Shown: positions 7,380 to 22,776, numbered from the stretch's first letter. The stretch is 64,000 bases of DNA from Prochlorococcus sp. AG-402-K14 (GCA_003216815.1 QCIG01000001.1:62001-126000), one strand, 5' to 3'. Program-made: numbers and translations. Notes: generated from the letters alone by a model not told the origin.

Positions 7380-7468
7380 ACTAATTAAAGACTAAAAGAA
7401 GGGAAAAGTTAATTAAGGAACCCTCGCTGTTATTAAAAGTGAAAACAGGCTATTTCGCTAAGAGGTAA

Positions 7469-7615
7469 TTAACGCCTAGAACAGATGCCGAATTGCAAGC
7501 ACTCCATCACATCATCATCATATTTCATCTTGTAATTAGAAAATAAATCAGAAAATTCTTTCGTTTGAATAGATTTCCCTGAAAAATTCTTAAATAATTG
7601 CTTTGAGAATGGCAT
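7469..7615 (-). CDS. Cx5C microprotein, copy 1 (E-C-L-Q-F-G-I-C-S)
   Basis: 48 codons with a strong Shine-Dalgarno (GGAGG, 7 bases before the ATG). The N-terminal half is basic and amphipathic (PFSKQLFKNFSGKSIQTKEF); the C-terminal half is acidic (YDDDVM) and leads into ECLQFGICS, ending RR. The same C-terminal motif occurs in genes at 9021, 9583 and 22597, so this is a paralogous family. The two cysteines five residues apart could bind metal, form a disulfide or be modified. The function is unknown. Confidence 0.7.
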   Translation of the reverse strand: MPFSKQLFKNFSGKSIQTKEFSDLFSNYKMKYDDDVMECLQFGICSRR

Positions 7616-7920
7616 AGTTAAACCTCCAAACAACCTATTTAATTTCTACTCACTATGGGGTAATAAGTCTATGGGAATGAACACTCAAGTATTTAAACGG
7701 TCAATGAACTAATTAAATAGATAGCGTCAATTTGAGAACTATTAATTAGAGCTTTATTAATATGGAAAATCAATTCATTGATGCAGAGGAACTTTTCTCC
7801 AATCTTTACTTTTTCATTTCTAGTTTGATCAAAATAAATAATTAATGCACAAAATATGGATACAGCATAGAAGTATGAAATAATTAAACCGATGACATCA
7901 AATTGATTAAAAATCTTCCA
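7616..7920. other. gene-free stretch
   Basis: An AT-rich spacer. It contains the Shine-Dalgarno and presumably the promoter of the minus-strand gene at 7615. I see no coding frame, tRNA or repeat in the remainder. Confidence 0.4.
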
Positions 7921-8232
7921 TTATTTTGATTTTTCTCTTTGACTAAAACCATCAGGAGATTGAAGATATGAAGTTTGCCCTAAATAGGGATCTTCACCAA
8001 AAAGATCATTCATTTGCTTTTGTGTCATTTGCCTAGGAGCTTCAACCATTTCACTATGGTCTTCTAATTCTTTAAGAGATGGATCAATTTCACCTGCACT
8101 AAGAGAAGCAGGACAAACAATCAAAAGAAGACCAAGTGAGAAAGAAACAATTCGAATTAGCAATAAGTCAATCATTTTCATAAATTTGCTTATAAGAAGA
8201 ATCGGAATTTTCAACTTGCTTAATAGTCTCAT
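7921..8232 (-). CDS. secreted small protein, paralogue of the gene at 37149
   Basis: 103 residues from the first ATG; an inner ATG at 8181 gives a cleaner signal peptide (LIRIVSFSLGLLLIVCPASLSA, cut after SA). The mature part is acidic. It carries MTQKQMNDLFGEDPYLG, which matches MTEEQLNDLLGEEMYLG in the 37149-37388 protein. Both would be exported to the periplasm or lumen. The role is unknown. Confidence 0.65.
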   Translation of the reverse strand: MRLLSKLKIPILLISKFMKMIDLLLIRIVSFSLGLLLIVCPASLSAGEIDPSLKELEDHSEMVEAPRQMTQKQMNDLFGEDPYLGQTSYLQSPDGFSQREKSK

Positions 8233-8398
8233 CTTGACTTGCTTTGTCCTTCTTGAAAATGAGAATTCACCATCACCCCAGGGCTAAAAAAGGAGATTAG
8301 GTAACCAAAAAGGCAAAAACTACAGACAGAATCTTATTCAAGAAAAGTTGAAAGCAATTAGATATTTAAAGCCTTTTCAGAAATATCGTTTAACTAAA

Positions 8399-8863
8399 TT
8401 AACTCATATCCATTCCTATTTTCATCTCATTCATCGAAACCTCACTCTTTTCATCATCCAATGGTTCTTTACTAATCTCAGGTAATGTTATATCACTGAC
8501 TTCAGGTAAAGATGGTTGAATAACAATCCCTAGAGGATTATCACCATTGTCTTCAAGAACTGATGACACATCTAATTGAGACTCTTCTTTTAGATCTTTA
8601 AGCAATTCATCTTCTGCTAAAAGTTCTTCATTCTCATCGCTTTTCCTTTCACTTGTATCTTTTATTAAAATTTTCGAAAGATCAATTACGTTAATGATTA
8701 CAGATTTCTGACTTGCATATATATCATTTATCAAATTGATTAATTCGCTAGATTTTGAAGACTGAAAAATAAAAGCATAACCAGTCCAGCCAGCCAAAAT
8801 AATCGAAATTAAGACAATAGAAATAAAGGCAGAATACATTGCTTTTATTATTGTCTTAATCAT
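8399..8863 (-). CDS. N-terminally anchored acidic protein
   Basis: 154 residues with one N-terminal helix (residues 10-32, FISIVLISIILAGWTGYAFI), then a helical region and a long acidic, proline-containing, probably disordered tail rich in Glu, Asp and Ser. The soluble part would face the periplasm or lumen. No known domain is visible. Confidence 0.6.
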   Translation of the reverse strand: MIKTIIKAMYSAFISIVLISIILAGWTGYAFIFQSSKSSELINLINDIYASQKSVIINVIDLSKILIKDTSERKSDENEELLAEDELLKDLKEESQLDVSSVLEDNGDNPLGIVIQPSLPEVSDITLPEISKEPLDDEKSEVSMNEMKIGMDMS

Positions 8864-9020
8864 TTTGCGACTTGATATATTGTTGAATCTAGGCGCATCA
8901 ATAGAGTCTTAAAACAACCTCTTCACACCCTGTAAGGGCGCATAAATACCTGGTGGTTTACTCTCTTGTATTTATTCCACAACTGGAGTAAATATATATT
9001 TTTGGTACCTAGGAAACTCC

Positions 9021-9182
9021 ATGATGTCCTTTAATCCATTCAAACCTTTAATCCTAAAATCATTCCTCAGCAATATTTCTAAGAGCAAACAAACAAATGA
9101 TGAGCAACTGGAATGCTTACAGTTTGGTATATGTTCTGTGCAAGTTCAATCTCCAAAACCAGAAGAATTGTATTTCAGGTGA
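9021..9182 (+). CDS. Cx5C microprotein, copy 2
   Basis: 53 residues beginning MMSFNPFKPL and carrying ECLQFGICS at residues 31-39, followed by a variable tail (VQVQSPKPEELYFR). The upstream sequence (from about 8942) resembles the leader of the next copy at 9583: both have AAATACCTG, TATTTATTC and GGAGTA in the same order, so the gene and its leader were duplicated together. Confidence 0.65.
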   Translation: MMSFNPFKPLILKSFLSNISKSKQTNDEQLECLQFGICSVQVQSPKPEELYFR

Positions 9183-9582
9183 AAAATAGACTTAGGACTA
9201 AGCAGCTTCATGAATATTTCCAATAAATTCATTTAATTCTTGAAATTTCCGGTCAAAATAATTTATCTTTTTTTGTTTCCGTCATTTCATAAGGATAAAT
9301 TTTCACTGTCTAATGAAAGATGATTGTCACCACTTATCAAGTAAATCAACTAATTTAAAATTTATTAAACCAAAAATATTAAAGAGCCATTGTTTACCAT
9401 GATTAATATCTTCCATTCTTGAACCTTTTATTTTTGAACTGAATTATTAGTTAGGTATTATTTCATTTATATAAAATAAAAAACCTTCCAAAACTCGTTT
9501 GTCGAATAAATACCTGAGTATTTATTCTCTAGGGTCCACTCCCCTTACAGGAGTAGATATAAAAAAGGGTCTTCAACTTCCT
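9183..9582. other. gene-free stretch with a leader and a possible gene relic
   Basis: 9183-9290 contains, on the minus strand, an uninterrupted frame without a start (FDRKFQELNEFIGNIHEAA) that may be a broken small gene. 9505-9582 is the leader of the Cx5C gene at 9583, similar to the leader before 9021. I see nothing else. Confidence 0.35.
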
Positions 9583-9786
9583 ATGTCCTTCTCTAAACGT
9601 TTTGCTAAATTAACTACTGAAGCTGCAGAGAATGCAGCTAGACTTGTTCTTACTCAACTAACAGAAAGGCTAAATTTTATCAGGCACCAATCAATAATGG
9701 ATGAAGAAATGGAATGTATGCAATTTGGTATATGTTCTTATAAAACACAAGGACAAGCAGAAGTACAAGTACAAGTACAAGTATAA
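9583..9786 (+). CDS. Cx5C microprotein, copy 3, with repeat-expanded tail
   Basis: 67 residues from the ATG at 9583, chosen because MSFSKRF aligns with the starts of the other copies; the frame is open from a TTG at 9499. A helical, Ala-rich region precedes MDEEMECMQFGICS, and the tail ends QVQVQVQV, encoded by a GTACAA hexanucleotide run. The motif position and acidic lead-in match the other three copies. Confidence 0.7.
   Translation: MSFSKRFAKLTTEAAENAARLVLTQLTERLNFIRHQSIMDEEMECMQFGICSYKTQGQAEVQVQVQV
9763..9785 (+). repeat. GTACAA hexanucleotide repeat inside a gene
   Basis: Three full GTACAA units plus a partial one form the last codons of the Cx5C gene (Val-Gln repeats). Slippage in steps of six bases would change the length of the protein tail without a frameshift. 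Confidence 0.8.
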
Positions 9787-9951
9787 AGGAGTAATTACTT
9801 AGGAGTAATTATATATAAATAACTGATCTAATTTTAATATTTTCATCATTAAAATTCACTTTTTTAGTTTTCCCTTTTCTTACTATTGAAGTAATAAGTA
9901 AAAAGCTGAAAAGTCTTAGACTGACTTTTTAGACTTAAATTAATTAGTAAG

Positions 9952-10284
9952 TTATTGGTTATCAGAATCCTCCAAAAGGTCTGAATATTCTGGTGTCTTA
10001 GCTATCGGCAACTCAGAAGCGCTATTAGTTGATCTCACTAACAAAGCAATTAATTCTGATGTTCTTTTATTACTTGCGACATTACTACCGTGCGCTGAAA
10101 CTGCTGCACCAGCAACAAAAGCAGAAATTGGTTTCCACCAAGGCATCGACTTTAGGTCATTCTTTTGAACCTCTGCAAAGAAAAAACCGAGCCCAAACAA
10201 AATACCAAATACACCTCCAGACCACTTGCATATCTCGGCTGAAATAGATTTGGCCTTTTCAGCAGCATTAATTTGATCTTCCAT
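9952..10284 (-). CDS. hypothetical membrane protein
   Basis: 110 residues: a helical N-terminus, two hydrophobic segments (GGVFGILFGLGFFFA and ISAFVAGAAVSA), then a polar C-terminus. The first 12 residues are charged (EDQINAAEKAKS). The family is unrecognised and no partner gene is adjacent. Confidence 0.55.
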   Translation of the reverse strand: MEDQINAAEKAKSISAEICKWSGGVFGILFGLGFFFAEVQKNDLKSMPWWKPISAFVAGAAVSAHGSNVASNKRTSELIALLVRSTNSASELPIAKTPEYSDLLEDSDNQ

Positions 10285-10384
10285 TTTGATTTAAATGACG
10301 AAAGTAAAGAGCGTGATTATTCAATAATTATAAAAGCACTTTTTAAATCTAATGAACATAAGTAACTATTCCAAGATCAAGGTC

Positions 10385-10561
10385 TTAACTTAAGTGAAAA
10401 ATCTTTTCACTTAGTACAAAAACAAAAAGCATAATAGAGCTCATAGCGAGTACGACTCCTCCTATAATAAGAGTATTGTTTTTGTCGGATTGTAATTCTT
10501 TAACAACTTTTTGAATTGATTGAGAATTAGCTAATTTTTCTTCATTTTTTTTCTTACTCAT
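10385..10561 (-). CDS. small single-helix membrane protein
   Basis: 58 codons. A Lys/Glu-rich helical N-terminus (SKKKNEEKLANSQSIQK) is followed by one transmembrane segment (TLIIGGVVLAMSSIMLFVFV) and a short tail. There is no clear Shine-Dalgarno. The layout is typical of the single-helix proteins of this region. Confidence 0.5.
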   Translation of the reverse strand: MSKKKNEEKLANSQSIQKVVKELQSDKNNTLIIGGVVLAMSSIMLFVFVLSEKIFHLS

Positions 10562-10878
10562 TTGATTAAAGTTGAATCGTTAATAAAGTGAGACTATATA
10601 TAAATATGATCATTTACTATTTTTAGTCATAATTTCTAGTTATCAGACTATCTGGTATTTAATTTCAATTGACTTTGACTTTGACTTTGACTTATCCAAT
10701 TGTTAGAAAACTAATATAAAAAAATTCTTTTTTGTCATTATTGATAATTATCTTCACTACTAAGGCTGTGAATCTATCAATTAGCCCCAACGCCGGAAGA
10801 AGCACAATAACTTTTGCTAAGCCAACAACTCAAATTCATTAATTCCAGATAAATTCTTTCTGCCAGAGAAAAATTCAA
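10562..10878. other. gene-free stretch
   Basis: This spacer between a minus-strand and a plus-strand gene must hold their promoters, and it contains the TTTGAC repeat. I see no other coding frame or RNA. Confidence 0.4.
10669..10694 (+). repeat. TTTGAC hexanucleotide repeat
   Basis: Four tandem TTTGAC-type units lie in non-coding DNA. Each unit resembles a -35 promoter hexamer (TTGACT), but no -10 partner is obvious. It may be simple slippage. Confidence 0.7.
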
Positions 10879-11052
10879 ATGCAATTGACTACGTTAGCTT
10901 TAGCTTTCTCAGAGTGGGGTATAGGAAGATTTCCTTTGGATTTAATTGTTTTTCTATCGATTGTTCTTATTTTTGCCTTACCTGCGGGTATAAATAGGAA
11001 AAAAATATTTGTTAAAGGTGATGCCTTTACAACTAGGTTAAAAAAACAATAA
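10879..11052 (+). CDS. small single-helix membrane protein
   Basis: 57 residues: a short amphipathic start (QLTTLALAFSEWGIG), one helix (LDLIVFLSIVLIFALPAG) and a basic tail (NRKKIFVKGDAF...). The tail would be cytoplasmic. The function is unknown. Confidence 0.5.
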   Translation: MQLTTLALAFSEWGIGRFPLDLIVFLSIVLIFALPAGINRKKIFVKGDAFTTRLKKQ

Positions 11053-11425
11053 AAGAATGTGAGGCATTTGTCTTGATATGGTAATGAACTAACTTAGAAC
11101 TTAAATATTGGTAATCTAAACAGAAATCAATCTAGTTAATTAGCAAAGCAAAAAAGTGTGGTTTACAATTATTTAGTAGTATAGATTTTCTTGAATAGTT
11201 AGAAAAATGCTTTGTACTATTCCATTGAGACCAGTTTTCTGAGCTATTGGAGGATGTAATTTTTCTAACCCGAAAAGATTGTGTGAGGGACAATAGTGCG
11301 TAGCATTCAAATTAAAAAAAATTCTCTTCTCCATGTGATCAGGTTGGAGTAGAGCCAACGGTGGTGTACGTTTTGCAAATCATTCTGTCATAGAAAAAAT
11401 TTTGAATTTATTTTTAATTAATTAT
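11053..11425. other. gene-free stretch
   Basis: The only open frame (minus, 11173-11358, 61 codons) lacks a ribosome site and a convincing composition. A segment near 11343 (GGTTGGAGTAGAGCCAACGG) weakly resembles the GGTTGAGGTAGGGCTTTCC element repeated at 26-37 kb. Confidence 0.3.
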
Positions 11426-11512
11426 TTATTGACCATGACAAATACACTTTCCACCCTTCCAAGCTGAACATTTCTTTTTTTTGCACTTCTTTTTTTTCTT
11501 CTTATCTCCCAT
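11426..11512 (-). CDS. 28-residue Lys/Cys-rich peptide
   Basis: An ATG-to-TAA frame encodes MGDKKKKKKCKKKKCSAW plus a short GGKCICHG end: ten lysines and four cysteines in 28 residues. The Cys spacing (C-x4-C, then C-x-C and a following His) would suit metal or nucleic-acid binding. There is no Shine-Dalgarno and the A-rich DNA makes chance possible, so the call is tentative. Confidence 0.4.
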   Translation of the reverse strand: MGDKKKKKKCKKKKCSAWKGGKCICHGQ

Positions 11513-12032
11513 ATGAATTAATGAATATATTTTATTTTAATAGAAGCAAAATCATCTTGTTGGATTATCAAGTTTAAAAATTTGCAACTATAAATTTATT
11601 TTTAACTTTATCATTAATAAGACAAACTCTCTTATAAAAAACTTAAATTCGATTTTCATTGGATGTAGTACCTAACTAAATCAGCAATCAAAAATATAGA
11701 AGCCCTAACGCAAGGATAAGTGAAAAATTTGATCCCACCGAAGTCTTTCTGAAATATTAGGAATATCGTCATTCTTTCTTTTTCTTAAAAGGAGACAAAC
11801 CATTTACTTTTATTTTTTCGAGCTTCTCCATAATTTTTTTAAGTTCAAAATTACAAAGAAGCCATTTTTCCTATAAATTTTTAATTTTTTCTAAGATCAA
11901 AAGAAAAAGATGTCAACAAAAAATATATTTCTACTTTTCGTATTTCTTTAAAAAACAGAGAAATGTTCATCTTGTGACATTCAATACAATCTATTTCTGT
12001 TCTTTGATTCATCCTTCTATGCATGAAAATTG
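11513..12032. other. gene-free stretch
   Basis: About 520 bases of very AT-rich sequence with homopolymer runs. I find no coding frame, hairpin terminator or repeat to report. Confidence 0.4.
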
Positions 12033-12203
12033 ATGGTTATGACCACAAAACTTACCTATCGATATGCATTCACTTTGCTAAAAATGAAAAATGCAGTAGG
12101 AAGAAACGAGTATATGGATTTAGCTAAAGAAGCAAATCTTTTGTGGTATCAGATAGTTAGCAAGAAAGCAAAAAACACACCTCGTATAAACTGTCGAGCT
12201 TGA
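12033..12203 (+). CDS. small basic hypothetical protein
   Basis: 56 residues (or 54 from the ATG at 12039), basic and helical, with no membrane segment; it ends KAKNTPRINCRA. The composition is coding-like and there are no overlapping frames. The function is unknown. Confidence 0.45.
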   Translation: MVMTTKLTYRYAFTLLKMKNAVGRNEYMDLAKEANLLWYQIVSKKAKNTPRINCRA

Positions 12204-12213
12204 TTTTTTTTAA

Positions 12214-12546
12214 TCACTGAGAAAAAGCTGGACCTTTAACTAAATCAGTTTTCTTTCGTATTGAAAATAACTGAGAAAATTTATTTTCAACAAAGGCTCC
12301 AAGGCCTAGGTCAATAAGGATGTGTAAAACGAGAGAAACACAAAAAAGCACATAAAAAATCAAATGACAAATAAATGTATTAGCAAAATCATCCTTTTCC
12401 TTTTCTTTTCCATTTTTTGAAGTTAATTCGCTTTCATTAATTTTTTTTTGGTTACGCTCAGCAACTCTATTAGAACTTGCTGATTCAACCAATCCAAATG
12501 AAACCAATTCAATATCTTTAACTGTTGGAGGAGAAGAAACAGTCAT
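12214..12546 (-). CDS. hypothetical protein with one membrane helix
   Basis: 110 residues. A long polar N-terminal half rich in Ser, Glu and Lys is followed by a hydrophobic segment (ICHLIFYVLFCVSLVLHILI) near residue 60 and a polar C-terminus. The start ATG follows a purine-poor spacer with no strong ribosome site. The family is unknown. Confidence 0.55.
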   Translation of the reverse strand: MTVSSPPTVKDIELVSFGLVESASSNRVAERNQKKINESELTSKNGKEKEKDDFANTFICHLIFYVLFCVSLVLHILIDLGLGAFVENKFSQLFSIRKKTDLVKGPAFSQ

Positions 12547-12859
12547 AACAAATACTTAATTAGACATACAATACTTTCTTATTGATAAGTTTGGCTTATG
12601 AGTTATTCTTTCGTCTCAAATCTTTTTCAAGTAAGCCATCGTTTCGAGATCTTTCTGTAACATGATTGGAACTTTTTGAACATCAAACCTGTTCTTTAAT
12701 TTAGAAATCTTTTTTTTCAAAAAAGCAATGATGAACATAATTTTTTTTTATATCTCTTATTAAATCTACTGACTGAAAAGATTCAATCAGTAAGAATAAC
12801 CAAAGGCAACAGGGGGAGCTAATACCACTCCCAGGGTTATGGCACACAAACAATCAAAA
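12547..12859. other. gene-free stretch with one weak frame
   Basis: The minus-strand 12616-12738 reads as a 40-residue basic peptide starting FIIAFLKKKISKLKN. It lacks a ribosome site and I do not call it. The rest is AT-rich with no feature. Confidence 0.3.
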
Positions 12860-13111
12860 CTACTTTGTAAAAAGAGAACTCTTCACACCAGATTGTTCCC
12901 ACTTCTTAATTGTTGGTCTTAAAAAAGACATTGGAAGAGCAGTCAAAACGGCAAATGAAACTACAAGTATCAAGTCAGTAGTGAAATGATTTATCCCAAA
13001 ATCAGTGCCAGCAAGCCATAGCCAAGGAAATGCAGAAGCAAATAAATTAGTTGGCATTAATTTTCTCCAATGGAAGTCAAGACTATTTGATAATTGTATC
13101 CAATAATTCAT
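12860..13111 (-). CDS. small membrane protein
   Basis: 83 residues with two hydrophobic stretches (FASAFPWLWLAGTDFG and TDLILVVSFAVLTALPMSFL) and a basic tail (KKWEQSGVKSSLFTK). It is probably a two-helix protein. I do not recognise the family. Confidence 0.55.
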   Translation of the reverse strand: MNYWIQLSNSLDFHWRKLMPTNLFASAFPWLWLAGTDFGINHFTTDLILVVSFAVLTALPMSFLRPTIKKWEQSGVKSSLFTK

Positions 13112-13285
13112 TACTTAGTAAAAATTATTAGTTTCCCTTTTTGATTTTCTTTCTTTTATTTAGCCTCATACCGAAACTAAGAACATAATTTGATCAGTTT
13201 CTTGTTGATGGCATAAAAAAATAATTTTAGATTTTCCTTCTGCAAATGTGTGATGATTTACATATCATAAGAAACAATAAATATA

Positions 13286-13675
13286 TTAGTAAGAACAACT
13301 ATTAATAATAGTTTTTTTAATCAATTTATCATTAATTGGGTTAGTCCAGTCTTTAACTTCTTTAAGCTCAGAGTTTAATGGAAGTTTGCTAAATAATCGT
13401 TTCTCACAATCGATTGCCAATAAAAATGATTGAGTATTTATAAAATCATTATTATCAGGATTTACTTGGGAGTATTTAGTCAAAACAGATAAGAAGCCTT
13501 TATTATTGTATTTTATTGAATTAGCATCTATAAACTGAATTTCGTTATTAGTATTTGCTACCTCAATCCAGTCGATCCCCTCAGCAGATGAAGTATCGAA
13601 ACCAGCTAGTAAGAAAGAACATGTAATCAAGCAAAAAATCAGTCCCTTCTCAATAAATATTCTAAGGTTGCTCAT
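13286..13675 (-). CDS. secreted protein resembling the surface-adhesin E-like group
   Basis: 129 residues: a signal peptide (GLIFCLITCSFLLAGFDTSSA), then a domain beginning WIEVANTNNEIQFIDANSIK. The W-x-x-[IV]-A...[FY]-[IV]-D-x-x-S-[IV] opening is typical of small exported proteins annotated as surface-adhesin E-like in cyanobacteria. Cysteines in CEKRLF and at the C-terminal SCSY could form a disulfide in the periplasm. The family assignment rests on this opening alone. Confidence 0.65.
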   Translation of the reverse strand: MSNLRIFIEKGLIFCLITCSFLLAGFDTSSAEGIDWIEVANTNNEIQFIDANSIKYNNKGFLSVLTKYSQVNPDNNDFINTQSFLLAIDCEKRLFSKLPLNSELKEVKDWTNPINDKLIKKTIINSCSY

Positions 13676-13910
13676 TATTTTAGTTATTTTTATATTAATG
13701 CCTACTTAAGCTAACCAATAGAAGAAAAACATCTATTGCTTATAGTAAATATACATAAATTATTTTTTCTTAAAATGTTTAGTTCAATTATTTTCCTATT
13801 AAAAGTGAATAATTTAAAGATATTATTAATAATGAGTGCTCCTACGTCTTGGAATAAGATTCAATAGAAACTTATATTAAATAAATAGCAGTATCTTTTG
13901 GTTTTTAGGC

Positions 13911-14114
13911 TTACTTATAGAATTGATCATATGCTAATTGTTCCTCCATATCTTTACCCAAGGAAGAAAGTACTTCATTAATCCTTTTCAACTCTCTCTC
14001 CAATTCACTTCTTTTAAATTGCAATTCTACAAATCTTCTTTGCATCTCTGATTGAGTCCTCTTTCTAGAAGATTCATTTTTGTGAATTTGTTCAGCTGGA
14101 AAAGGATTTCTCAT
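13911..14114 (-). CDS. coiled-coil hypothetical protein
   Basis: 67 residues with a continuous heptad-like helix from about residue 14 to 58 (RRFVELQFKRSELERELKRI) flanked by polar ends. There is no membrane segment. It is probably a small dimerising protein. The function is unknown. Confidence 0.55.
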   Translation of the reverse strand: MRNPFPAEQIHKNESSRKRTQSEMQRRFVELQFKRSELERELKRINEVLSSLGKDMEEQLAYDQFYK

Positions 14115-14374
14115 TGTTAAGACCTTTTGCTTTAAATATAAAATGGTCTAAAAATGCCTTCCTGACTTTTAATGATTACTAGAGTTAGTCGTAGACATCT
14201 ATAACTGATTTACTTGATATATCAGTAAACTGTAAATCCGTCTTAATGCTGGAGTATTAACACCTCCGTTTTCTTACTTCAAGATTTACTAGGAAATTTC
14301 ACTGGATTTGACCTATTCATCACTATAAAAAATTTCGTCGTATACTTTTAATAGGCGTGTTAGCTATATGCCAA

Positions 14375-14548
14375 TTAGAATATGTGTGTAGTATCCAAAG
14401 TCTCTTTTTTAGCTAATTCCCTCCTCTCAATAAGTTTATTAATAGAAATCAAGGCTAGATCATAAGTAGACAAGCCAATCTCCGCTTCAAAAGAATATTG
14501 ATTAGTAATACCCTTTTTCTTAGTGATAATTACATTCGAATACTCCAT
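14375..14548 (-). CDS. small soluble hypothetical protein
   Basis: 57 residues, beginning EYSNVIITKKKGITNQYSF and ending in a charged helix (RRELAKKETLD). It has a coding-like composition and no overlaps. I do not recognise it. Confidence 0.45.
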   Translation of the reverse strand: MEYSNVIITKKKGITNQYSFEAEIGLSTYDLALISINKLIERRELAKKETLDTTHIF

Positions 14549-14715
14549 TTTATTACCAATAGATATATTTACTTAAAAATATATTAAAATCATTTCAAGA
14601 GTGATTAAGACACTTTTATAATTGATTGTCAGCCCAGCTATAGCTATAGAGAATTCATAACTAATTTTATTTTATATTTAGACTCTCAACATAAAATATA
14701 TTAATTACTAAAATA

Positions 14716-15006
14716 TTAATTTTGTTTATCATTACTATCAAGGATCTTAGTCTTTTTTCTCTTTTGTTTTTGAAGTTTATAACCAAACTCCAAAAGTTGA
14801 TGATATGTCAATCTGGCTTGCAGAGCACTTAAAGAGAGACGTTTCTCATTATCTTTTTGAAGATAGAAATTCCCTTTATTATTATTATTTGTCTCTATTG
14901 TTATGTACTCTTTACCTTTCTTAAGGATCCAAGGCTCTTTTTGATAGCTATTTTCACCATCTTTAAAGTCCCATGGGACTCGTTCTGTCTTTTTCTTCGA
15001 TGGCAT
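14716..15006 (-). CDS. basic hypothetical protein
   Basis: From the ATG at 15006 the product is 96 residues starting PSKKKTERVPWDF. The frame is open to 15081, but the extra residues differ in composition. The middle (KKGKEYITIETNNNNKGNFY) suggests a small beta-rich domain and the C-terminus is a lysine-rich helix. It may bind nucleic acid, but no family is recognised. Confidence 0.55.
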   Translation of the reverse strand: MPSKKKTERVPWDFKDGENSYQKEPWILKKGKEYITIETNNNNKGNFYLQKDNEKRLSLSALQARLTYHQLLEFGYKLQKQKRKKTKILDSNDKQN

Positions 15007-15135
15007 CTTAAAACTACATACCACATATTCTATTTTACATCTTATTCTAGAGATAATCCAATTAATGCTAATAACATCCAAATCAAATGTGACATGGTCG
15101 ATTATCTGAGCATATACAAGTTTTAGATCTTAATA

Positions 15136-15315: not shown

Positions 15316-15560
15316 TGTGTAGAAAATGATTACTCAATTAATACGTCATAACAGATCGTTATCAAGTCCGTCTTAACACCTAATTTTAGTACTTATTTCT
15401 ATACTCAAATTAAAAAGAATCTACTACTTAAGGGAGGCATTTTATAAACGCTTCTATGAAAGGTTTGACTTAAGGAGACTTTCTACGTTTCTTTAAGTTA
15501 ATCAAAACCTTTAGCTATCAAGGGTGAGTTGAGCTATAAATAGAGAATTAATTATAAAAA

Positions 15561-15710
15561 ATGAATTACATTCAAAATCTTTCTCCAATTAATCAACTTG
15601 TGGTTTTAGTAGCTTTTATTGGACTTTTATTTGGTATTTTGGTGGTTTACCTTGATAACAGCAAAGGCTTCGAGTTGAAGCGTGACTGGCGTAAGAAAAA
15701 TAGTAGATAA
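15561..15710 (+). CDS. small single-helix membrane protein
   Basis: 49 residues: a short start, one helix (LVVLVAFIGLLFGILVVYL) and a basic tail (KGFELKRDWRKKNSR). The size and topology resemble small photosynthetic-membrane subunits, but no specific match is claimed. Confidence 0.5.
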   Translation: MNYIQNLSPINQLVVLVAFIGLLFGILVVYLDNSKGFELKRDWRKKNSR

Positions 15711-15760
15711 TCGTGAATAAGTCTATTGAAATGACTTTGTTTTTAGAAATTACATTTTTA

Positions 15761-16060
15761 CTAATGAGTTACACCACAATCCATGATGAATATATTCGTA
15801 TCAATAGAGTTAACCCAACGTAACTTGAATAGATCTTGATATTCCGCACTGTTACAAGCTTTTATTGCAGCTTAATTGAATGGGAACTCAATATTCACTG
15901 CTAATTGTCCACCATTTCATTCAACATTTACTGGCTCCATATCTTTAGCAAATACAGAACTCGAGTTCGGATAGAACCCAAGGTTGAAAAAAACTTCAAA
16001 ATATTCAGCGAATGCTGGATGAGTAAACATTGATGTAACAAGCCAAAAGCACTTAGAAAT
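15761..16060 (-). pseudogene. decayed copy of the DUF1330-like gene at 37935
   Basis: The minus strand aligns along its whole length with the intact 37935-38231 gene. Shared pieces include FWLVTSMFTHPAFAEYFEVF, VFAKDMEPVNVE and an end decoding as the intact copy's. The start ATG has become ATT and stops interrupt the middle (for example near 15876 and 15917). Confidence 0.75.
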
Positions 16061-16364
16061 CAAAAAACAACTGAAGTGAAAAAGTTTGCGCACATTGTTC
16101 AATTATTAAAATAAATATTAGAAAATCAATCAAAGCAGGTGGAGTCGCAGTTACAGATGAAGATGCTTGATTCAGATGGGGGTGACTGTTAGTCCTGCAT
16201 ATCTTCGCCATAAAAATTGAGATCATATTGACATGTAAAGAGGTTATTCCAAATTGGCACAATAACGCTACATTTAGTGCAAGCAGAGAACTAAATGAAT
16301 GACATCAACGCTATATTCACCATGTATTTACCCAGAGATAGTCACCCATGCAACCCTTAGCCTA
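16061..16364. other. gene-free stretch
   Basis: A 69-codon minus-strand frame here (16053-16262) overlaps the DUF1330 relic and has no ribosome site. A short plus-strand stretch (AGGVAVTDEDA then stop, near 16130) may be a relic. Nothing is convincing. Confidence 0.3.
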
Positions 16365-16493
16365 ATGACTAAAATCACTGACTACTCTACATTTTGTGAA
16401 ACTTCTCTTACTGCCAAAGAGCAAGACGAAGCATTAAGAAGAGCTTGGATAAGTAATACCGAAGTAAAACTTTTAGAGCGCAAAAGCAAATAA
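16365..16493 (+). CDS. small soluble hypothetical protein
   Basis: 42 residues from the ATG at 16365 (TKITDYSTFCETSLTAKEQD...). The frame is open from 16299, but the added residues look non-coding. It is helical and mildly basic at the end. The family is unknown. Confidence 0.4.
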   Translation: MTKITDYSTFCETSLTAKEQDEALRRAWISNTEVKLLERKSK

Positions 16494-16939
16494 CTTGTCG
16501 AAAAAAAATTGCATATAAAATAGAACTGGCATTTTTTTATTGTGGATGCTTCGATATTAGTAGTATTTCTTGAGCACAGGCACTAATAGTCGGATCTTTT
16601 ACATCAAGATTTGGTAATGTTTCTACCCTTTCTGAAATTGACCAGATGAATATAACCAATAAATTATTTTTCGATATTATTTGTTTGAAGGCTATTCAAT
16701 TTTCTATCTTGATTCCTAGAATATTAAAATCGTAGATGAATAAAGCGGATATTCAAGAGCATCTAAAGAGAGCCTAATTTGACTTTATAAGAAAGGATAT
16801 CAAAAAAAATTGTCATCTTTTTAAGGTTAAAGCTCTCCATATAAATCATTGCTCTTTTATATGAAGAACATTAATACTGATGAAATTAAATATGTTAATG
16901 CTGCTGAAATAAAGAGTAAGTAACTGCTAGAAAGGACTA
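16494..16939. other. gene-free stretch
   Basis: A TTG-started 40-codon frame on the minus strand (16537-16659, SERVETLPNLDVKDPTIS) and a 20-codon frame at 16861-16923 are possible micro-genes without support. The remainder shows nothing. Confidence 0.3.
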
Positions 16940-17266
16940 ATGAAATTCTTTTTACCGATCTATCAAGACCTTAATGATTACTTTGCAGTAAAAACCAAGA
17001 CCATATCTCGTATAGCCATAGCTGACATTATGGATAACAGTATGCTGATAAGATGGTATAGCAAAATCTTTGATAGCTACTTACTAGTAAAAGATTTGAA
17101 AGGCTTTGGATATTTTGAATCTGATTTCTCACATGGTTATGTACAAGCCACATTTCGTTTTAACAAACTTGCCTTAGAGGTAATAAAATTTCAATTAGAC
17201 CTACGTGGTCTTAATAAAAGAAACACTAGAGAAATTTCAATTATTGAAGCGACAATGAAAGGCTAA
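16940..17266 (+). CDS. hypothetical soluble protein
   Basis: 108 residues, mixed alpha/beta, with no membrane segment. It begins KFFLPIYQDLNDYF and ends with a charged helix. The composition is coding-like. I cannot name the family. The next gene (17323) is on the same strand 56 bases on. Confidence 0.55.
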   Translation: MKFFLPIYQDLNDYFAVKTKTISRIAIADIMDNSMLIRWYSKIFDSYLLVKDLKGFGYFESDFSHGYVQATFRFNKLALEVIKFQLDLRGLNKRNTREISIIEATMKG

Positions 17267-17322
17267 TCGCATACAATAACCAAAACTATTGTACGGCAAT
17301 CAAAAAGTGGCATGATGATATT

Positions 17323-17604
17323 ATGAATCGTCTAGATGAACTGATAGTTTTACTTAATAGCTTTTTCAATAGGGGAAGCACTAACAAGAGAGAAATGAAA
17401 AGGGTTTTTCAGTGGAAAAGGTATCTTAAATGGAACGATTTAACACCTGAAGAAAAACTCTCAGCTAAACGATTCATTTTACTCCCGGTATTTGCGTATT
17501 TAATAATTGGGATCTTTAATCAGAACTTCTCATTAATTGTTCTATTCCTAATTGGGTATGTACTTTATAAGAAATTCGAGAAAAGAAGTATTGAAAAAAA
17601 ATAA
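17323..17604 (+). CDS. hypothetical membrane protein
   Basis: 93 residues: a charged soluble half (residues 1-48) followed by two hydrophobic helices (FILLPVFAYLIIGIF and LIVLFLIGYVLYK) and a basic end. It may share a transcript with 16940. The function is unknown. Confidence 0.55.
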   Translation: MNRLDELIVLLNSFFNRGSTNKREMKRVFQWKRYLKWNDLTPEEKLSAKRFILLPVFAYLIIGIFNQNFSLIVLFLIGYVLYKKFEKRSIEKK

Positions 17605-17730
17605 ATAAACTTTGATTATTTTTTACCTCTTACAATTCACTGCTAATTAAATACTTTAAGAATAGTAAGCCTATTAATGTCTATCTCAAGACAAATGTAA
17701 TAGGTAATCTCATTTCCTCAGCTATAAAAA

Positions 17731-17756
17731 AAAAGGAACTAATAAGTTCCCTTTTG
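17731..17756. terminator. hairpin terminator
   Basis: AAAAGGAACT and AGTTCCCTTTT pair around the loop AATA, flanked by A and T runs, so it could end transcripts from either side. It sits after 17604 and before 17776. Confidence 0.65.
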
Positions 17757-17775
17757 ATTTTTCTAACTATTTTAA

Positions 17776-17958
17776 ATGGTTTCATTTGCAAGAGCAAGAA
17801 CAAGATCATGGCTTTCTAAGGTATGGCCTATGGCAGTTCAACCCATTAAAAATGAAGCAGATAAGCTGGGAGCATACAATGAGCTTATAAAAAATCAACA
17901 AGAACAAAATAAGTGTTTTTTAGAAGCTAGCAAGAATGGCGGAATGTGGTTTTCTTAA
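17776..17958 (+). CDS. small basic hypothetical protein
   Basis: 60 residues: a basic, Arg-rich start (VSFARARTRSWLSK), then a polar helical region ending KNGGMWFS. There is no membrane segment. It is preceded by the terminator at 17731, so it has its own transcription start. The function is unknown. Confidence 0.5.
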   Translation: MVSFARARTRSWLSKVWPMAVQPIKNEADKLGAYNELIKNQQEQNKCFLEASKNGGMWFS

Positions 17959-18271
17959 GAATCTGACTAAATCCCTGAGAGACAATAATATTCTCAAGTC
18001 CTTTTTCATTCATTACAGATAAGATCTATCACCCTTTTGACTGCAGCACCATAGAAGAAGAGGTATCAAGTATTGGAATTTAGAATGCATAAGTTAATTC
18101 CATCTTTATTGAAGATCTTTAATAAGTGTTATACGAATTCTAATGAAGCATGAAATAGCCAATCCATGAAAATATCTTTTCTACTGATTTGAACATTTCT
18201 AATGAACTAACTTCTTTTCACAATCATTTAGTTTATTGTCAGTCGAACCAGTGTTAAAGGTCTAGTCTTGC
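17959..18271. other. gene-free stretch
   Basis: Between convergent genes. I see no coding frame, repeat or clear terminator. Confidence 0.4.
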
Positions 18272-18700
18272 CTAAAGTTCTTTAGCTAAATATTCAATAT
18301 AATTTTTCAAAGTATAGCCATGAGAATCATCATTACCTTTTACAAAATCAATATCATCAATTAGGTCTATGTTATGTCCTGCCATTAGCTCCTTTACTCG
18401 GGCATTAAACCAATCTTTAACAGATTTCTCTAATGCATCTTTTTGGTGCTGAGACCATAGATAAGTATCAAATGCTGTTACTGCATCTTCTCTACTCCAT
18501 TTTTGTAGTCCTATGAAGTGATTTTTTACTGGACAATCTTTTCTATTTATATAATGTTTCTTAGAAGTTCTAGACATTCCTCGTGCATACCGTTCTTCAG
18601 CAAATATATTTTTAACTAACAACTGACCTGCCATGTTTTCATTTTTAATTTGAACCTCTCTTCTCATATCCTTTTGACCTAAGACTTGTATTGGATCCAT
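18272..18700 (-). CDS. KDCPV-family hypothetical protein, paralogue of the gene at 38836
   Basis: 142 residues. It shares with the 38836-39378 protein a start of the form I-x-VLGQ-x-D-x-RR, the motif Y-I-x-RKDCPV, a tryptophan-rich middle, a W-x-[ND]-ARVK segment and the ending HGYTLK-x-YIE. The conserved Cys, His and Trp could form an active or binding site. It is soluble. The two copies lie 20 kb apart, one beside tRNA-Pro. No known family is recognised. Confidence 0.7.
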   Translation of the reverse strand: MDPIQVLGQKDMRREVQIKNENMAGQLLVKNIFAEERYARGMSRTSKKHYINRKDCPVKNHFIGLQKWSREDAVTAFDTYLWSQHQKDALEKSVKDWFNARVKELMAGHNIDLIDDIDFVKGNDDSHGYTLKNYIEYLAKEL

Positions 18701-18702
18701 AG

Positions 18703-18804
18703 CTAATTAGTTTTTGTAGGTTCACTTACTTTCGATTGAAAATCTCCAAGTAGATTGTTCCAATAATTCATCAAAGAATCAGGCATAGGTGTGTTTAATG
18801 GCAT
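18703..18804 (-). CDS. 33-residue peptide upstream of the KDCPV gene
   Basis: ATG to TAG, ending two bases before the start of the 18700 gene, so it could be a coupled leader peptide or small partner. The sequence PLNTPMPDSLMNYWNNLLGD is hydrophilic. There is no other support. Confidence 0.35.
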   Translation of the reverse strand: MPLNTPMPDSLMNYWNNLLGDFQSKVSEPTKTN

Positions 18805-18852
18805 TTAATAGAAAGTACATTAAGCATTATTTTTGCTGCTAATCCCGTTTTA

Positions 18853-18922
18853 ACAGAATTTGTTTCACTTCATAACCATGAACAAATTTAATTTCGCCCG
18901 AATCTAATTTAATAATTGATAA
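18853..18922 (-). pseudogene. fragment of the VDSGEI-family gene (see 32354, 35664)
   Basis: The minus strand decodes as IIKLDSGEIKFVHGYEVKQI, matching VANVDTGEIKFVHGEEVREI in the 35664 protein and the equivalent in the 32354 protein. Only this core survives; the flanks are not alignable. Confidence 0.65.
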
Positions 18923-18954
18923 GTTTTAACATCTTGATTTGTATTTTCTTTTGA

Positions 18955-19047
18955 TTAAAAACAATCATCTTCTACACCCCGACCCGAATCAGTAGATGGA
19001 ATAGCACAAATTGAAAGGGCAAAAACTAATGAAATAACCTTTTTCAC
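18955..19047 (-). CDS. short exported peptide, relative of the gene at 37701
   Basis: 30 residues from a GTG start. The signal-like start KKVISLVFALSICAIPS parallels KKLISLVFTLSVIGSPS in the 37701 gene, and both have a GTG start. This copy stops early after a short tail (EDDCF), so it may be a truncated remnant. Confidence 0.45.
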   Translation of the reverse strand: MKKVISLVFALSICAIPSTDSGRGVEDDCF

Positions 19048-19058
19048 TTTGAACTAAG

Positions 19059-19085
19059 AAGATTCTCTGGATATATCAGAATCTT
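19059..19085. terminator. 8-bp hairpin with T run
   Basis: AAGATTCT and AGAATCTT pair around an 11-base loop, followed on the plus strand by TTTTC. No plus-strand gene ends close upstream. The rest of the 19048-19400 gap shows only the presumed promoter of the gene at 19401. Confidence 0.4.
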
Positions 19086-19400
19086 TTTCTTGATCCATTA
19101 TTTTTAAAAAATTAATCAAGACTACTCAGTCGAAAACGAAATCAGATCCATCCCTTTAGAGAGTCTTAAATAGTCGAAATATAAAGATCTGATAAGTCCT
19201 TCTTTTTTTATTATTTGTGATCCCGAAAGATTGCATTAGTTTTTTGGGAATAGTTAAAGGAGTAAATAGTTTCATAGGCCCTCTTTGCTATAACTTTGTT
19301 TTAGACCTTTTATTTGCTCATTGAAAGTATTTAACTACTACAAAATTGGTGCAATGAAGGTACCTTCAAGTCATGATAGTTATAAGCATAAAAACTAATT

Positions 19401-19616
19401 ATGGGAGAAGCCAAAAGGAGAAAAGAATTGGGGCTGCCCCCTAGAGAAAAGCCAATAGAGACAGATTTACCTACACTTGACAAGAAAGTTATACAAAATA
19501 AAGTAAGAACTTTTTTATATAAAAATCCAATTATTCCATTCCTTTTTTATGGTGGTGCAATAGCAGCTCTCTTTTGGGGTGTATTTAATCTCGTGAAAGT
19601 CTATAAATTGCTTTAA
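19401..19616 (+). CDS. DUF2839-like small membrane protein
   Basis: 71 residues starting MGEAKRRKELGLPPREKP, the signature start of cyanobacterial DUF2839-type proteins, then one C-terminal helix (IIPFLFYGGAIAALFWGVF). The tail helix would anchor it with the basic N-terminus in the cytoplasm. A second copy lies at 20059. The function is unknown. Confidence 0.75.
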   Translation: MGEAKRRKELGLPPREKPIETDLPTLDKKVIQNKVRTFLYKNPIIPFLFYGGAIAALFWGVFNLVKVYKLL

Positions 19617-19689
19617 CAAAAAAACACTTCTTTCCACTAGTTCTATCATAAAATAAATATCAATTAATACAAATAATATTAATTATACT

Positions 19690-19863
19690 GGAATAAAATC
19701 GCTTCAATAGGTCTTGTATACCATTATTTAAAACAAATAAAGTTAGGAAGAGGATGATACCAGGAGAACTAATTCTTCAAGGTAAAAACACAACTCTTTC
19801 TTTTCAAGTAGCTAGCTTTACTGCAATTAACCTACGTATTACACTTATTTTTAATTTTTTCTG
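19690..19863 (+). pseudogene. decayed DUF2905-like gene
   Basis: The nucleotide sequence aligns with the intact gene at 23095-23298 (TATTTAAAACAAATA, then the GRLPGD-equivalent, then the last helix), but stops and frame changes break it. It sits between two DUF2839-like genes. Confidence 0.7.
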
Positions 19864-20058
19864 ATCGCCCGAGGAATTCTCGATAAAAACTGAGTATGAG
19901 CTTTTGTTTTGATTATTTTTCTGACTTTTAGAGAAGCCCAAATCATTGGTTAAATTATTCCCAATCTGATTTTTTTTAGCTTTGCATTTATGTAAAATAA
20001 AATATAAGTTGACGCTCGTTTTATTCTGTGAGCATTAGCCCTTTTTTTTTTACTAATT

Positions 20059-20241
20059 ATGGGAGAAGCCAAAAGAAGAAAGGAGTTGGGAATGCCTCCT
20101 AGAGATAAGAAGAAAAAGAACATGGATAAGAAAGCTGGTTTTCTCAACAATCTCTCAGCAAAATATCCCTTTTTGCCCTTTATTCTCGGTGGTGTTCTTT
20201 TAACTATACTTATTGTTGATTTAGTGAATTACTACAAATAG
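20059..20241 (+). CDS. DUF2839-like small membrane protein, second copy
   Basis: 60 residues: MGEAKRRKELGMPPRDK, a lysine-rich linker, then one helix (FLPFILGGVLLTILIVDLV). It shares its first 18 residues almost exactly with the 19401 gene, and the upstream ACTAATT is also shared, so the pair is a local duplication. Confidence 0.75.
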   Translation: MGEAKRRKELGMPPRDKKKKNMDKKAGFLNNLSAKYPFLPFILGGVLLTILIVDLVNYYK

Positions 20242-20408
20242 AAGGATGCTTGAGCCCTTTTTTCTAGAAATAAAAGCTGATTAATACGCATCTTATTAGG
20301 ACCGATTGATATTGGAAATATTAAGGATGACTTAGTTCAACACATTCACCTGTTCCCTCTTGCCTAATTAGGAATTAGTACTTGAGTATAAGCCGAGGTG
20401 TTTAAATC

Positions 20409-20615
20409 ATGAGGAATCAATTAGAACATAGTCATTCTAATAGGAGGTTTATGAAGCTAAGAACTCCATTTTCCGTCATCAAAAATGCTTTGAGTGATAT
20501 ACGGGTAATGCATGATTTCAATTACGAATTTCCTGCTGACACTCGAGAGGAGTTTTGGGAAGAAGAATGTGATATCCATCCAACTTCTTCAACATGCAAA
20601 GTTTATGACAATTGA
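20409..20615 (+). CDS. CP12-like protein with the C-terminal GAPDH-binding motif, copy 1
   Basis: 68 residues; a start at 20451 (53 residues) is possible because AGGAGG precedes that ATG at short spacing. The C-terminus EECDIHPTSSTCKVYDN has the C-x8-C-[RK]-x-Y-[DE] form of the CP12 C-terminal loop, which in CP12 inserts into the glyceraldehyde-3-phosphate dehydrogenase site and switches the Calvin cycle off in the dark. The N-terminal cysteine pair and the AWDAVEEL core of full CP12 are absent. A paralogue is at 23373. The CP12 link is inferred from the motif only. Confidence 0.65.
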   Translation: MRNQLEHSHSNRRFMKLRTPFSVIKNALSDIRVMHDFNYEFPADTREEFWEEECDIHPTSSTCKVYDN

Positions 20616-20630
20616 AAGAGCAATTACCTC

Positions 20631-20813
20631 ATGGATCCTTTAGATCCTGCACTTCAAAGTACTTCTATTTCAGGAGTTAAGCCATTATTAACTCTGGCAA
20701 TATTTGCTGGAGTTGGATCTTTTTTCTTTGGAGCACTTTTTACTGCTATTAAAAAAGGAATTAAAGAAGAAGGTTGGTTCAAATTCAATCAAGGCAAAGA
20801 AAAAAAAGATTAA
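20631..20813 (+). CDS. small single-helix membrane protein
   Basis: 60 residues: a polar N-terminus (DPLDPALQSTSISG), one glycine-containing helix (LLTLAIFAGVGSFFFGALF) and a Lys-rich tail. It starts 15 bases after the CP12-like gene and is probably co-transcribed. The function is unknown. Confidence 0.6.
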   Translation: MDPLDPALQSTSISGVKPLLTLAIFAGVGSFFFGALFTAIKKGIKEEGWFKFNQGKEKKD

Positions 20814-20870
20814 GCAAGTTCATTTTAAGTCTCTATTTTGAACAAAAGATTTCAGTAGATACAATCACAA

Positions 20871-21053
20871 ATGGATTTCTTTGATGAGTTCGAAATTATT
20901 GGTGGGATCATTCCGAACTTGATTGGCTTAGCAGTTTTTTGTGGGGTAATAATTTATTTTGATCAAACTAGAAAAGCAAAAGTCAGACGAGGAGAAAAAA
21001 TAATTAGTCAATATAAAGGTAAAACTAGTTTGATATTTTTTAAGTTTTTATGA
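20871..21053 (+). CDS. GG-I-[IV]-PNLI small membrane protein, copy 1
   Basis: 60 residues with IIGGIIPNLIGLAVFCGVII, shared with the gene at 28501 (IIGGIVPNLIAFVLFIGAIG) and a broken copy at 34174. It has one membrane helix and a basic C-terminus. Three copies in one window support a real family of unknown role. Confidence 0.65.
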   Translation: MDFFDEFEIIGGIIPNLIGLAVFCGVIIYFDQTRKAKVRRGEKIISQYKGKTSLIFFKFL

Positions 21054-21133
21054 ATTGGGTATTTCTTTCAGGTAGTAAAAATCATTGTCCTTAGCGAATC
21101 TAATTACATCAAAATCTAATTTTTCTTCCCACG

Positions 21134-21352
21134 ATGCCTTTTGCGGTTATTTCTGAAGCTGGTAATTGGGTTCCTTCTTATTCCCTTCTCTATTTTGTTT
21201 TGATCATGGGCGCTCTACTTACAGCTGGTGTCGCCATGTCAGCTTTTTCCTTTTACGATGATTACTATTGGGGGGATAAGGATTTTAGAGATCAACTTAG
21301 GTTTCATCCTTCAAACAGGAATTCATCCAATCAAAAGGCTCGAAAGGCCTAA
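21134..21352 (+). CDS. small single-helix membrane protein
   Basis: 72 residues: a helix (LLYFVLIMGALLTAGVAMSA) followed by an aromatic/acidic stretch (FYDDYYWGDKDFRDQ) and a polar tail. The family is unknown; the size and layout suggest a membrane-associated accessory protein. Confidence 0.6.
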   Translation: MPFAVISEAGNWVPSYSLLYFVLIMGALLTAGVAMSAFSFYDDYYWGDKDFRDQLRFHPSNRNSSNQKARKA

Positions 21353-21431
21353 ACAAGATTTACAAATATTTAAATAGAAAAATGGGGCAATAGACCCCTC
21401 ATAATCGTCTTTAATACACTGACCGTATTTA

Positions 21432-21647
21432 CTAAGAAGTGACTTCCTCCTTCTCCTTCCTGGCTGGAGCAGGAGCTTTGATCTCTTATTGTAGTTAATG
21501 CTCTCGATCATCAAGAACCTTGACTCGAGCTTGATAACTCTCCTCTAGTCTCTTACGAGAAGCCTCGATATTTTCGAGTTCTTCTTCTCTTTGTTTACGC
21601 TTGATTTCTTCTAGCTGACTATCAGAGACCACATAAACAGTTCTCAT
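21432..21647 (-). pseudogene. coiled-coil protein with a probable frameshift
   Basis: From the ATG at 21647 the first 50 residues (RTVYVVSDSQLEEIKRKQRE...) stop at 21495. A second frame immediately downstream reads IKAPAPARKEKEEVTS to a stop at 21432, the sort of Pro/Ala tail expected on such a protein. One indel near 21490 would join them. Without a homologue in the window this stays an inference; the first part alone may be functional. Confidence 0.45.
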
Positions 21648-21896
21648 AGGGGAGAAGAAGGAATCAGCGAATACTCCCTCAAATAAAGAAGAATACATTA
21701 CATTCATTCGAAAGACATATCTACTTTGACTTGACTACTTGGAATTTAAAATTTTACAAACCGAATAATCAATTACAGCCTCTACGACTAAGATCAGTTG
21801 CCACTACTACTTGTTTGAGCATACCTATAGATTACTAGTAAGTCTTAAGCAAAACTCTTTGCTATTAATTAGTACAAAATGAAGTTAGTAATAGAA

Positions 21897-22475
21897 TTAA
21901 ATTTGCTTATTAGGGAATAATTCTTTATTTGACTCAGGAAGGTAACCTTGTGGATTCATTGGCTGTAGATCTCGTGGAAAACCATAATTAAAAAATTCTC
22001 TTATGTTTAATTGATTCAAAGATTCTTGCTCAGGAATAACAAATGTATCTCGAATCAAGTTAACCTCAATTTCTTTTCTTTTACCTTTTTCGTTAGTTCT
22101 AGCAATGACTAATTTAATTGGCTTATCTTTAGGACCTTTGATTAATTTAATTGCCTCCTTCAAACCCATTCCTTTAGTAGCCTTTCCATCTATCTTTAGG
22201 ATTACATCACCTGATTTCATATCGGCATCACTTGCAGGCGTGCTATCAATAATTGATTGAATTGTTATTTCTGCCATATCACTATTCAGAAAAAGCGTTA
22301 TACCAATACCAGTCATTTCCCTTTTGATTTTTTTAGTTGCTCTCTGATTAGTTCTTACGCAACCAGAATAATCTCTAGCTTCAAGGCAACGTTTGTGAAT
22401 CTCTTCTGAGACCTCAGCCTTTACAGTACTTGGTAATACAAAAGCAAAAATAATGGGAAGAATTAAGTGTTTCAT
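21897..22475 (-). CDS. exported PDZ-domain protein
   Basis: 192 residues: a signal peptide (LILPIIFAFVLPSTVKA), a cysteine pair segment (KRCLEARDYSGCVRTN), then a PDZ domain at about residues 54-145. The PDZ features are GIGITLF, STPASDADMKSGDVILKIDG and the helix LKEAIKLIKGPKDKPI. There is no protease domain. PDZ folds bind C-terminal or exposed peptides, so it is likely a periplasmic or lumenal binding or scaffold protein. The tail is polar. Confidence 0.8.
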   Translation of the reverse strand: MKHLILPIIFAFVLPSTVKAEVSEEIHKRCLEARDYSGCVRTNQRATKKIKREMTGIGITLFLNSDMAEITIQSIIDSTPASDADMKSGDVILKIDGKATKGMGLKEAIKLIKGPKDKPIKLVIARTNEKGKRKEIEVNLIRDTFVIPEQESLNQLNIREFFNYGFPRDLQPMNPQGYLPESNKELFPNKQI

Positions 22476-22596
22476 TTTTGGATGTTCCCTACACTAATCT
22501 CAAGCTGTATGCGCTATCAATTTCTAATATATGCCGTCCATTTGATTTATAGATACTCCTATTTTCAAAAGCTCTCTGAAATTTAGATATGACTAG

Positions 22597-22776
22597 TTAA
22601 AAATGAAAATATGGAATGTCTTTCAGTCGAGGAGGCTTAGATGAGCAAATACCAAATTGCATGCACTCAATAACATCATCGTCATATTTGGGTTTGGAAG
22701 TAGAAAACAATTCATAATTCAGGAAAGATCCTTTGACATTATTTAGTAGATGATTAAATGGATTTCCACAAGACAT
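22597..22776 (-). CDS. Cx5C microprotein, copy 4
   Basis: 59 residues with a good Shine-Dalgarno (AGGAGA, about 8 bases before the ATG). The order is as in copy 1: a polar N-terminus, then KYDDDVIECMQFGICS, then a variable tail (SKPPRLKDIPYFHF). The acidic YDDDV lead-in is shared with copy 1 at 7469, 15 kb away. Confidence 0.7.
   Translation of the reverse strand: MSCGNPFNHLLNNVKGSFLNYELFSTSKPKYDDDVIECMQFGICSSKPPRLKDIPYFHF

Follow-up and report, generated by a model that had tools for sequence, protein, structure and literature searches.

A Prochlorococcus-restricted family of multicopy Cys-pair microproteins with a near-invariant core, mostly encoded behind a shared leader

CP12 (PF02672), the redox-controlled linker of GAPDH and PRK, is a thiol switch, and it resembles the proteins described here in being very short, acidic, and largely disordered and in having Cys pairs close to the C terminus. 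However, the family described here has a C-x5-C spacing where CP12 has C-x8-C, and it lacks the AWD-VEEL helix motif; the PF02672 profile matched none of the members scanned. Prochlorosins, the lanthipeptide precursors with Nif11/N11P leaders that are made by Prochlorococcus MIT9313, are likewise encoded in Prochlorococcus by multicopy, dispersed short genes. In contrast to their layout, in which a conserved leader precedes a hypervariable Cys/Ser/Thr core, the Cys-containing block here is invariant and the N terminus variable, neither Pfam nor NCBIfam detects a Nif11/N11P leader domain, and a LanC-like gene is absent from the genus (see below). The hli genes are also multicopy, short, and island associated, and hli-like genes lie beside the group D members of our family in MED4 and other high-light genomes, but the family has no transmembrane chlorophyll-binding helix and is unrelated to them in sequence. 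Finally, unannotated small open reading frames (ORFs) were found in MED4 with a tiling array (Steglich 2008, PMC2518516). One family member (657929 to 658111) adjoins the noncoding RNA (ncRNA) Yfr16 in the same stretch as PMED4_07522 from that study, although PMED4_07522 could instead be the adjacent 53-aa ORF; that paper's main text contains neither the family nor its motif or leader (PMC2518516).

We examined a 64,000-nucleotide stretch of Prochlorococcus DNA (the window), in which an earlier note had reported four related small genes. All four ORFs are real, and each encodes a run of acidic residues followed by EC[LM]QFGICS: copy A (7469 to 7615, minus strand, with an alternative TTG start at 7633; 48 aa, MPFSKQLFKNF...YDDDVMECLQFGICSRR), copy B (9024 to 9182, plus strand, with ATG at 9021 or 9024; 52 aa, ...LECLQFGICSVQVQSPKPEELYFR), copy C (9583 to 9786, plus strand; 67 aa, with the N-terminal helix TTEAAENAARLVLTQLTERL and the core MECMQFGICS), and copy D (22597 to 22776, minus strand; 59 aa, MSCGNPFNHLL...YDDDVIECMQFGICSSKPPRLKDIPYFHF), which belongs to the most widely distributed group. 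A degenerate DNA pattern back-translated from EC.QFGIC matched this genome five times, the fifth copy lying outside the window on contig 18 (24292 to 24474, minus strand), and the exact back-translated motif pattern matched 33 of 41 genomes of the genus; the reversed control patterns matched nowhere in either search, so the motif is not a product of chance. Profile searches recovered relatives in 39 of these 41 genomes, with up to seven matches per genome in the low-light NATL-like genus. Between 93 and 95 of 400 Cyanobiaceae genomes matched (profiles A1 and A3), confined to 5 of 59 genera, and the matching named contigs from a separate collection were all Prochlorococcus. The absence of homologues outside the window, which the earlier note had named as the result that would tell against it, is thus contradicted. 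Viral contigs held no relative, and the best match in phage genomes had E = 2. Across the phylum, no comparable sequence turned up elsewhere; the best external match (E = 5e-4) spanned 20 positions, contained an internal stop codon, and overlapped an unrelated 443-aa ORF. Searches of PHROGs gave subthreshold matches only (best E = 0.014), Pfam and NCBIfam gave no significant match, PADLOC and a PDB sequence search gave none, and a literature search on the motif string returned a single unrelated paper. We describe a hitherto undescribed family of ~48 to 67 residues that is restricted to Prochlorococcus. The gene is missing from several complete high-light genomes and is therefore not essential. 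The earlier observation is partly confirmed: the family is real, but larger and more ordered than first described.

The core, D-x3-E-C-[LM]-Q-F-G-I-C, is near-invariant across 98 distinct members (91 in the first reading). Numbered from the first Cys, which is present in all 98, D(-5) is conserved in 96, E(-1) in 97, Q and F in 95 each, G in 97, I in 90, and the second Cys (+6) in 97. Both Cys are retained in 97 of the 98, and a degenerate member in genome G001 (locus L191) has lost the second. In the divergent subtypes ECLTYGFCS, QFGNC, and ECLQFGFCS, the Cys pair and the Gly are kept while the adjoining residues vary. Pooled pairwise Nei-Gojobori estimates, whose pairs are not phylogenetically independent, gave core dN/dS values of 0.025 for group A, 0.00 for B, 0.009 for C, 0.00 for C', and 0.017 for low-light D; the value for high-light D is undefined, with no nonsynonymous change and saturated synonymous change. 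Within groups, the corresponding ranges are 0.23 to 0.50 for the N terminus and 0.22 to 0.76 for the tail. The core is under purifying selection, and the tail values indicate constraint or its relaxation, not diversification. Values near 1 between the copies, the other result that the earlier note had named as telling against it, were not found.

Reading of the same members (91, later 98) distinguished the groups A, B, C, C', D, E, and F/F2, with tails shared within groups. Group A begins with MPFSKQLF and ends, in relatives, in TRPAPPREIPYFHF; group B begins with MSFNPFKPL and ends in SPRPEELYFG; group C (...TTEAAENAARLVL.QL.ERL) ends in QPQRVNF and has a shorter form, C', in other genera. 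Group D (MSCGNPF/Y...), found in both low-light and high-light clades, ends in PPRLKDIPYFHF, or in EEIPYFHY in the high-light members. Group E reads MSCGNPFKHAIEDVKETF...ENECLQFG[IN]CSMDY, group F reads MTCGNPFNHMLKN...ECLTYGFCS, and group F2 reads MSCGNPFVHMLKS...ECLQFGFCS...KEIPYFHF, with the tail SLKEIPYFHF. A, D, and F2 share an IPYFHF/Y ending, orthologues keep their subgroup tails (e.g., ...PPREIPYFHF), and 84 of the 98 members have an aromatic residue or His among their last four. The claim that the tails differ completely therefore does not survive comparison with the relatives. The window conceals the group-wise tails because two of its copies are damaged. Copy A carries a premature TAA, and the remnant of its lost tail follows in frame (7433 to 7468, minus strand; LPLSEIACFHF and a stop), colinear with PVPPREIPYFHF of locus L083, whereas most of its orthologues, in 20 further loci, end in ...REIPYFHF. 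In copy C, an AAGTAC hexamer repeat (9761 to 9784, plus strand) encodes VQVQVQV and substitutes for the normal tail, which thereby reads AEVQVQVQV as opposed to QPQRVNF or QPQRVIQ in orthologues. The reasoning from a conserved block followed by a hypervariable end was thus built on what is largely an artifact of copies A and C; damage to individual copies can give an impression of hypervariability that comparison with relatives dispels. Elsewhere, contig 27 of genome G036 (locus L193) encodes two F2 copies (1356 to 1529 and 4642 to 4815), ~3.3 kb apart and with identical 140-nt upstream regions, which were either duplicated recently or result from a repeat in the assembly.

The regions upstream of several low-light D genes and of the A, B, C, C', and E genes align over ~65 nt, revealing a shared element, GTATAAATACTTgAGTGTTta-YTCTCTAG ... 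AGGAGTAGAAATaaa. A sequence-only model of this leader, searched against nine genomes at a threshold of E ≤ 2e-4, gave 32 matches, 26 before family members (one of them degenerate) and 6 before an unrelated microprotein, here termed T. The F copies are also preceded by the ~65-nt leader; the leaders of F and T were absent from the model and so provide independent support, whereas the A to E matches arise partly by construction. This holds for the window, where the leaders of copies A (7639 to 7703, minus strand; E = 3.1e-16), B (8934 to 8997, plus strand; E = 6.8e-14), and C (9503 to 9563, plus strand; E = 4.1e-14) are themselves in the model. The leaders of the two tandem genes B and C are indeed related, as had been noted, but copy A bears the same leader too. 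High-light D copies have no recognizable leader, and those of the window's own genus have at most half of one: a possible 5' half lies ~260 nt upstream of copy D (23034 to 23073, minus strand; a weak match, E = 0.045, also seen by eye in loci L090 and L096). A stem-loop in the D leader (22799 to 22839, minus strand; GGGGAAGGCATTC...GAATGTCTCCCC) is recognizable in four orthologues by eye, unscored. RNAalifold predicted no common pairs on the leader alignment, and we therefore set aside a conserved RNA structure and treat the leader as a sequence element. Two further candidates were rejected: an inverted repeat, ATAAATAC...GTATTTAT, occurs in the genome only at the window's B and C copies, and orthologues do not retain it in that form; the Yfr6 cluster-53 5' untranslated region (PMC1242208), judged by eye from the MED4 Yfr6 sequence, looks unlike the leader. 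A start site just after TATAAATA would mark the shared element as promoter and leader combined.

Microprotein T comprises 56 aa (M[TIN]RKRDKIWTAIIAT[KR]QWF[TS]KLF...DTHDKGD), has no Cys, and matches nothing in Pfam or PADLOC. It is encoded at positions 2438 to 2608 (plus strand) of locus L187 and in five further loci (L148, L149, L150, L188, and L189), divergently beside E copies, and appears frameshifted in genome G002. The placement of family members and T behind one leader implies a putative regulon, and, as most paralogues keep this common promoter or leader, they are probably switched on together.

In many genomes of the genus, the family forms a recurrent three-gene cluster, with A on one strand and B and C on the other. 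A SelO gene (4195 to 5889, plus strand) lies close to copies A to C in the window, SelO stands beyond group A in 20 loci of the genus, and it also occurs near C' (genome G043, locus L124) and near one D (locus L095). Its presence beside A, C', and one D in different clades suggests that this neighborhood is the ancestral locus. Three near-complete genomes of the genus without SelO (G001, G008, and G014) also lack the A-B-C cluster, as if the block had been gained or lost whole. A functional tie to SelO was rejected, since SelO is nearly universal (348 of the 400 Cyanobiaceae genomes and 57 of the 59 genera) and co-occurrence is therefore not specific. High-light D genes lie 33 to 65 nt after a gene for a membrane protein of 53 aa that has Cx8C at its C terminus and, in some strains, 13 nt before one for a short protein with longer homologues that terminate in a Cx8C tail like that of CP12. 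In MED4 (locus L130, 650000 to 669000), the family member at 657929 to 658111 is accordingly flanked by ORFs at 657730 to 657891, encoding the 53-aa single-span protein (C-terminal CSKSKSDPYC), and at 658125 to 658271; this trio possibly forms one operon. As a general partner, the 53-aa protein was discarded, since the genus yielded no convincing match to it (best E = 0.04). The MED4 member is in genomic island 2 and adjoins Yfr16, an ncRNA whose expression follows the photosynthetic redox state (PMC2518516); an Rfam Yfr11-family match at 657391 to 657529 agrees within one base with the published Yfr16 at 657392 to 657529. Yfr16 itself, encoded on the other strand, may have no bearing on the family gene. 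The window also encodes a small protein (23373 to 23606, plus strand) whose end, FWENECDLHPTNSTCKTYEV, resembles the CP12 Cx8C tail (no Pfam CP12 match) and which recurs as a DNA repeat of 75% identity at 20369 to 20608; a glutamine-II riboswitch (36467 to 36523, minus strand; RF01704, 42.5 bits); and two copies of the ncRNA Yfr13 (29403 to 29476 and 35560 to 35635, both plus strand; RF02364).

AlphaFold2 models for C and D are of low to medium confidence (mean pLDDT of 69 and 64, respectively) and show helices running from the N terminus into the core and tails without secondary structure; the N-terminal hydrophobic moments exceed those of shuffled sequences in some groups only. A fold search with the low-confidence D model (pLDDT of 64) returned one match, at E = 3.7. 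From these features we infer short, probably cytosolic proteins, presumably translated in vivo, with a variable N-terminal helix, an acidic core module, and a short tail, largely disordered and frequently with an aromatic residue at its end; the paralogues, multiplied in the low-light NATL-like genus and mostly under the common leader, would be induced together. The helix-plus-turn core with its Cys pair may bind one shared partner and open or close with redox state as a thiol switch, while the N-terminal helix and tail would determine the site, or the additional target, to which each paralogue attaches. We favor such a set of thiol-switch or docking microproteins tentatively, as a reading that could well prove wrong. 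It is consistent with the near-invariance and low dN/dS of the core, the retention of the Cys pair and Gly in divergent subtypes, the shared leader, the predicted helices, and the proximity of the MED4 member to redox-following Yfr16; the low confidence of the models, the leaderless high-light D copies, and the complete high-light genomes without the gene argue against it. The Cys pair could equally hold a metal or be merely structural.

The main rivals to thiol-switch docking are a redox-silent tag and metal binding. A tag or docking role, one of the three options of the earlier note (modified-peptide precursor, metal site, or targeting tag), which as a whole is partly supported, would fit a core that binds one receptor, e.g., a protease or one of the complexes of photosynthesis or carbon fixation, with the aromatic C terminus as the recognition end. 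The restriction of conservation to a block of 8 to 12 residues between variable flanks and the frequent aromatic or His ending point that way, as does a gene for a probably secreted PDZ domain protein that follows copy D after 121 nt in the same orientation (21897 to 22475, minus strand). However, that protein apparently has a signal peptide and the microproteins have none, it accompanies D only in the window's own genus (five loci), for which we rejected it as the partner, and the aromatic end is lost in window copy A; docking without redox chemistry appears less probable than the reading we favor. Somewhat less probable again are metal-binding chaperones or buffers, in which the two Cys with acidic or His residues would coordinate Zn, Cu, or Fe, perhaps within a homodimer. 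The invariant Cys pair, its acidic neighbors, the tail His of A, D, and F2 (PYFHF), and the additional Cys that many members of D, E, and F have near the N terminus (MSCGNP; five Cys in E) are compatible with a metal site, but CxxC or CxC spacing is absent, the only universal ligands are the two Cys and Asp/Glu, and no metal site relative was found in Pfam or the PDB. A universal Cys2His site is unlikely because B, C, and E lack the tail His; the additional N-terminal Cys is likewise absent in A, B, and C.

We consider it improbable that these are stress or phage-response microproteins, i.e., small host genes induced during infection. The MED4 member does share genomic island 2 with the phage-induced PMM0684 to PMM0686 and Yfr15 (PMC2518516), but the cluster of the window's genus sits beside SelO at one conserved position in relatives, and the searches found neither a phage homologue nor a PADLOC match. 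Least of all do we expect precursors of ribosomally made modified peptides with a cross-linked Cys pair: despite the short length, the Cys/Ser content, the dispersed paralogues, and the production of prochlorosins by Prochlorococcus MIT9313, the would-be core is the most conserved part, the tails show no diversifying selection, no precursor domain was detected, no modifying enzyme is recognizable among the recurrent neighbor clusters, and the LanC-like domain (PF05147) is absent from all 41 genomes of the genus, many of them incomplete (a Deinobacterium control was positive), making a lanthipeptide, specifically, unlikely.

These genes thus look like those of coexpressed small regulators, not of modified-peptide precursors: conserved, multicopy, very short proteins with a nearly unchangeable eight-residue block and no entry in Pfam, NCBIfam, or PHROGs. 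Existing RNA-seq data allow a direct test of the proposed regulon, and a redox or metal role of the Cys pair could be tested with a single purified protein. No photosynthetic organism is more numerous than Prochlorococcus, which possesses few regulators of the classical kind. More speculatively, and with considerable doubt on our part, up to seven paralogous thiol-switch proteins plus T could form a regulon under one dedicated leader, all of them acting interchangeably as adaptors on one central target. If this is true, a regulator-poor bacterium could tune one central target under different conditions.
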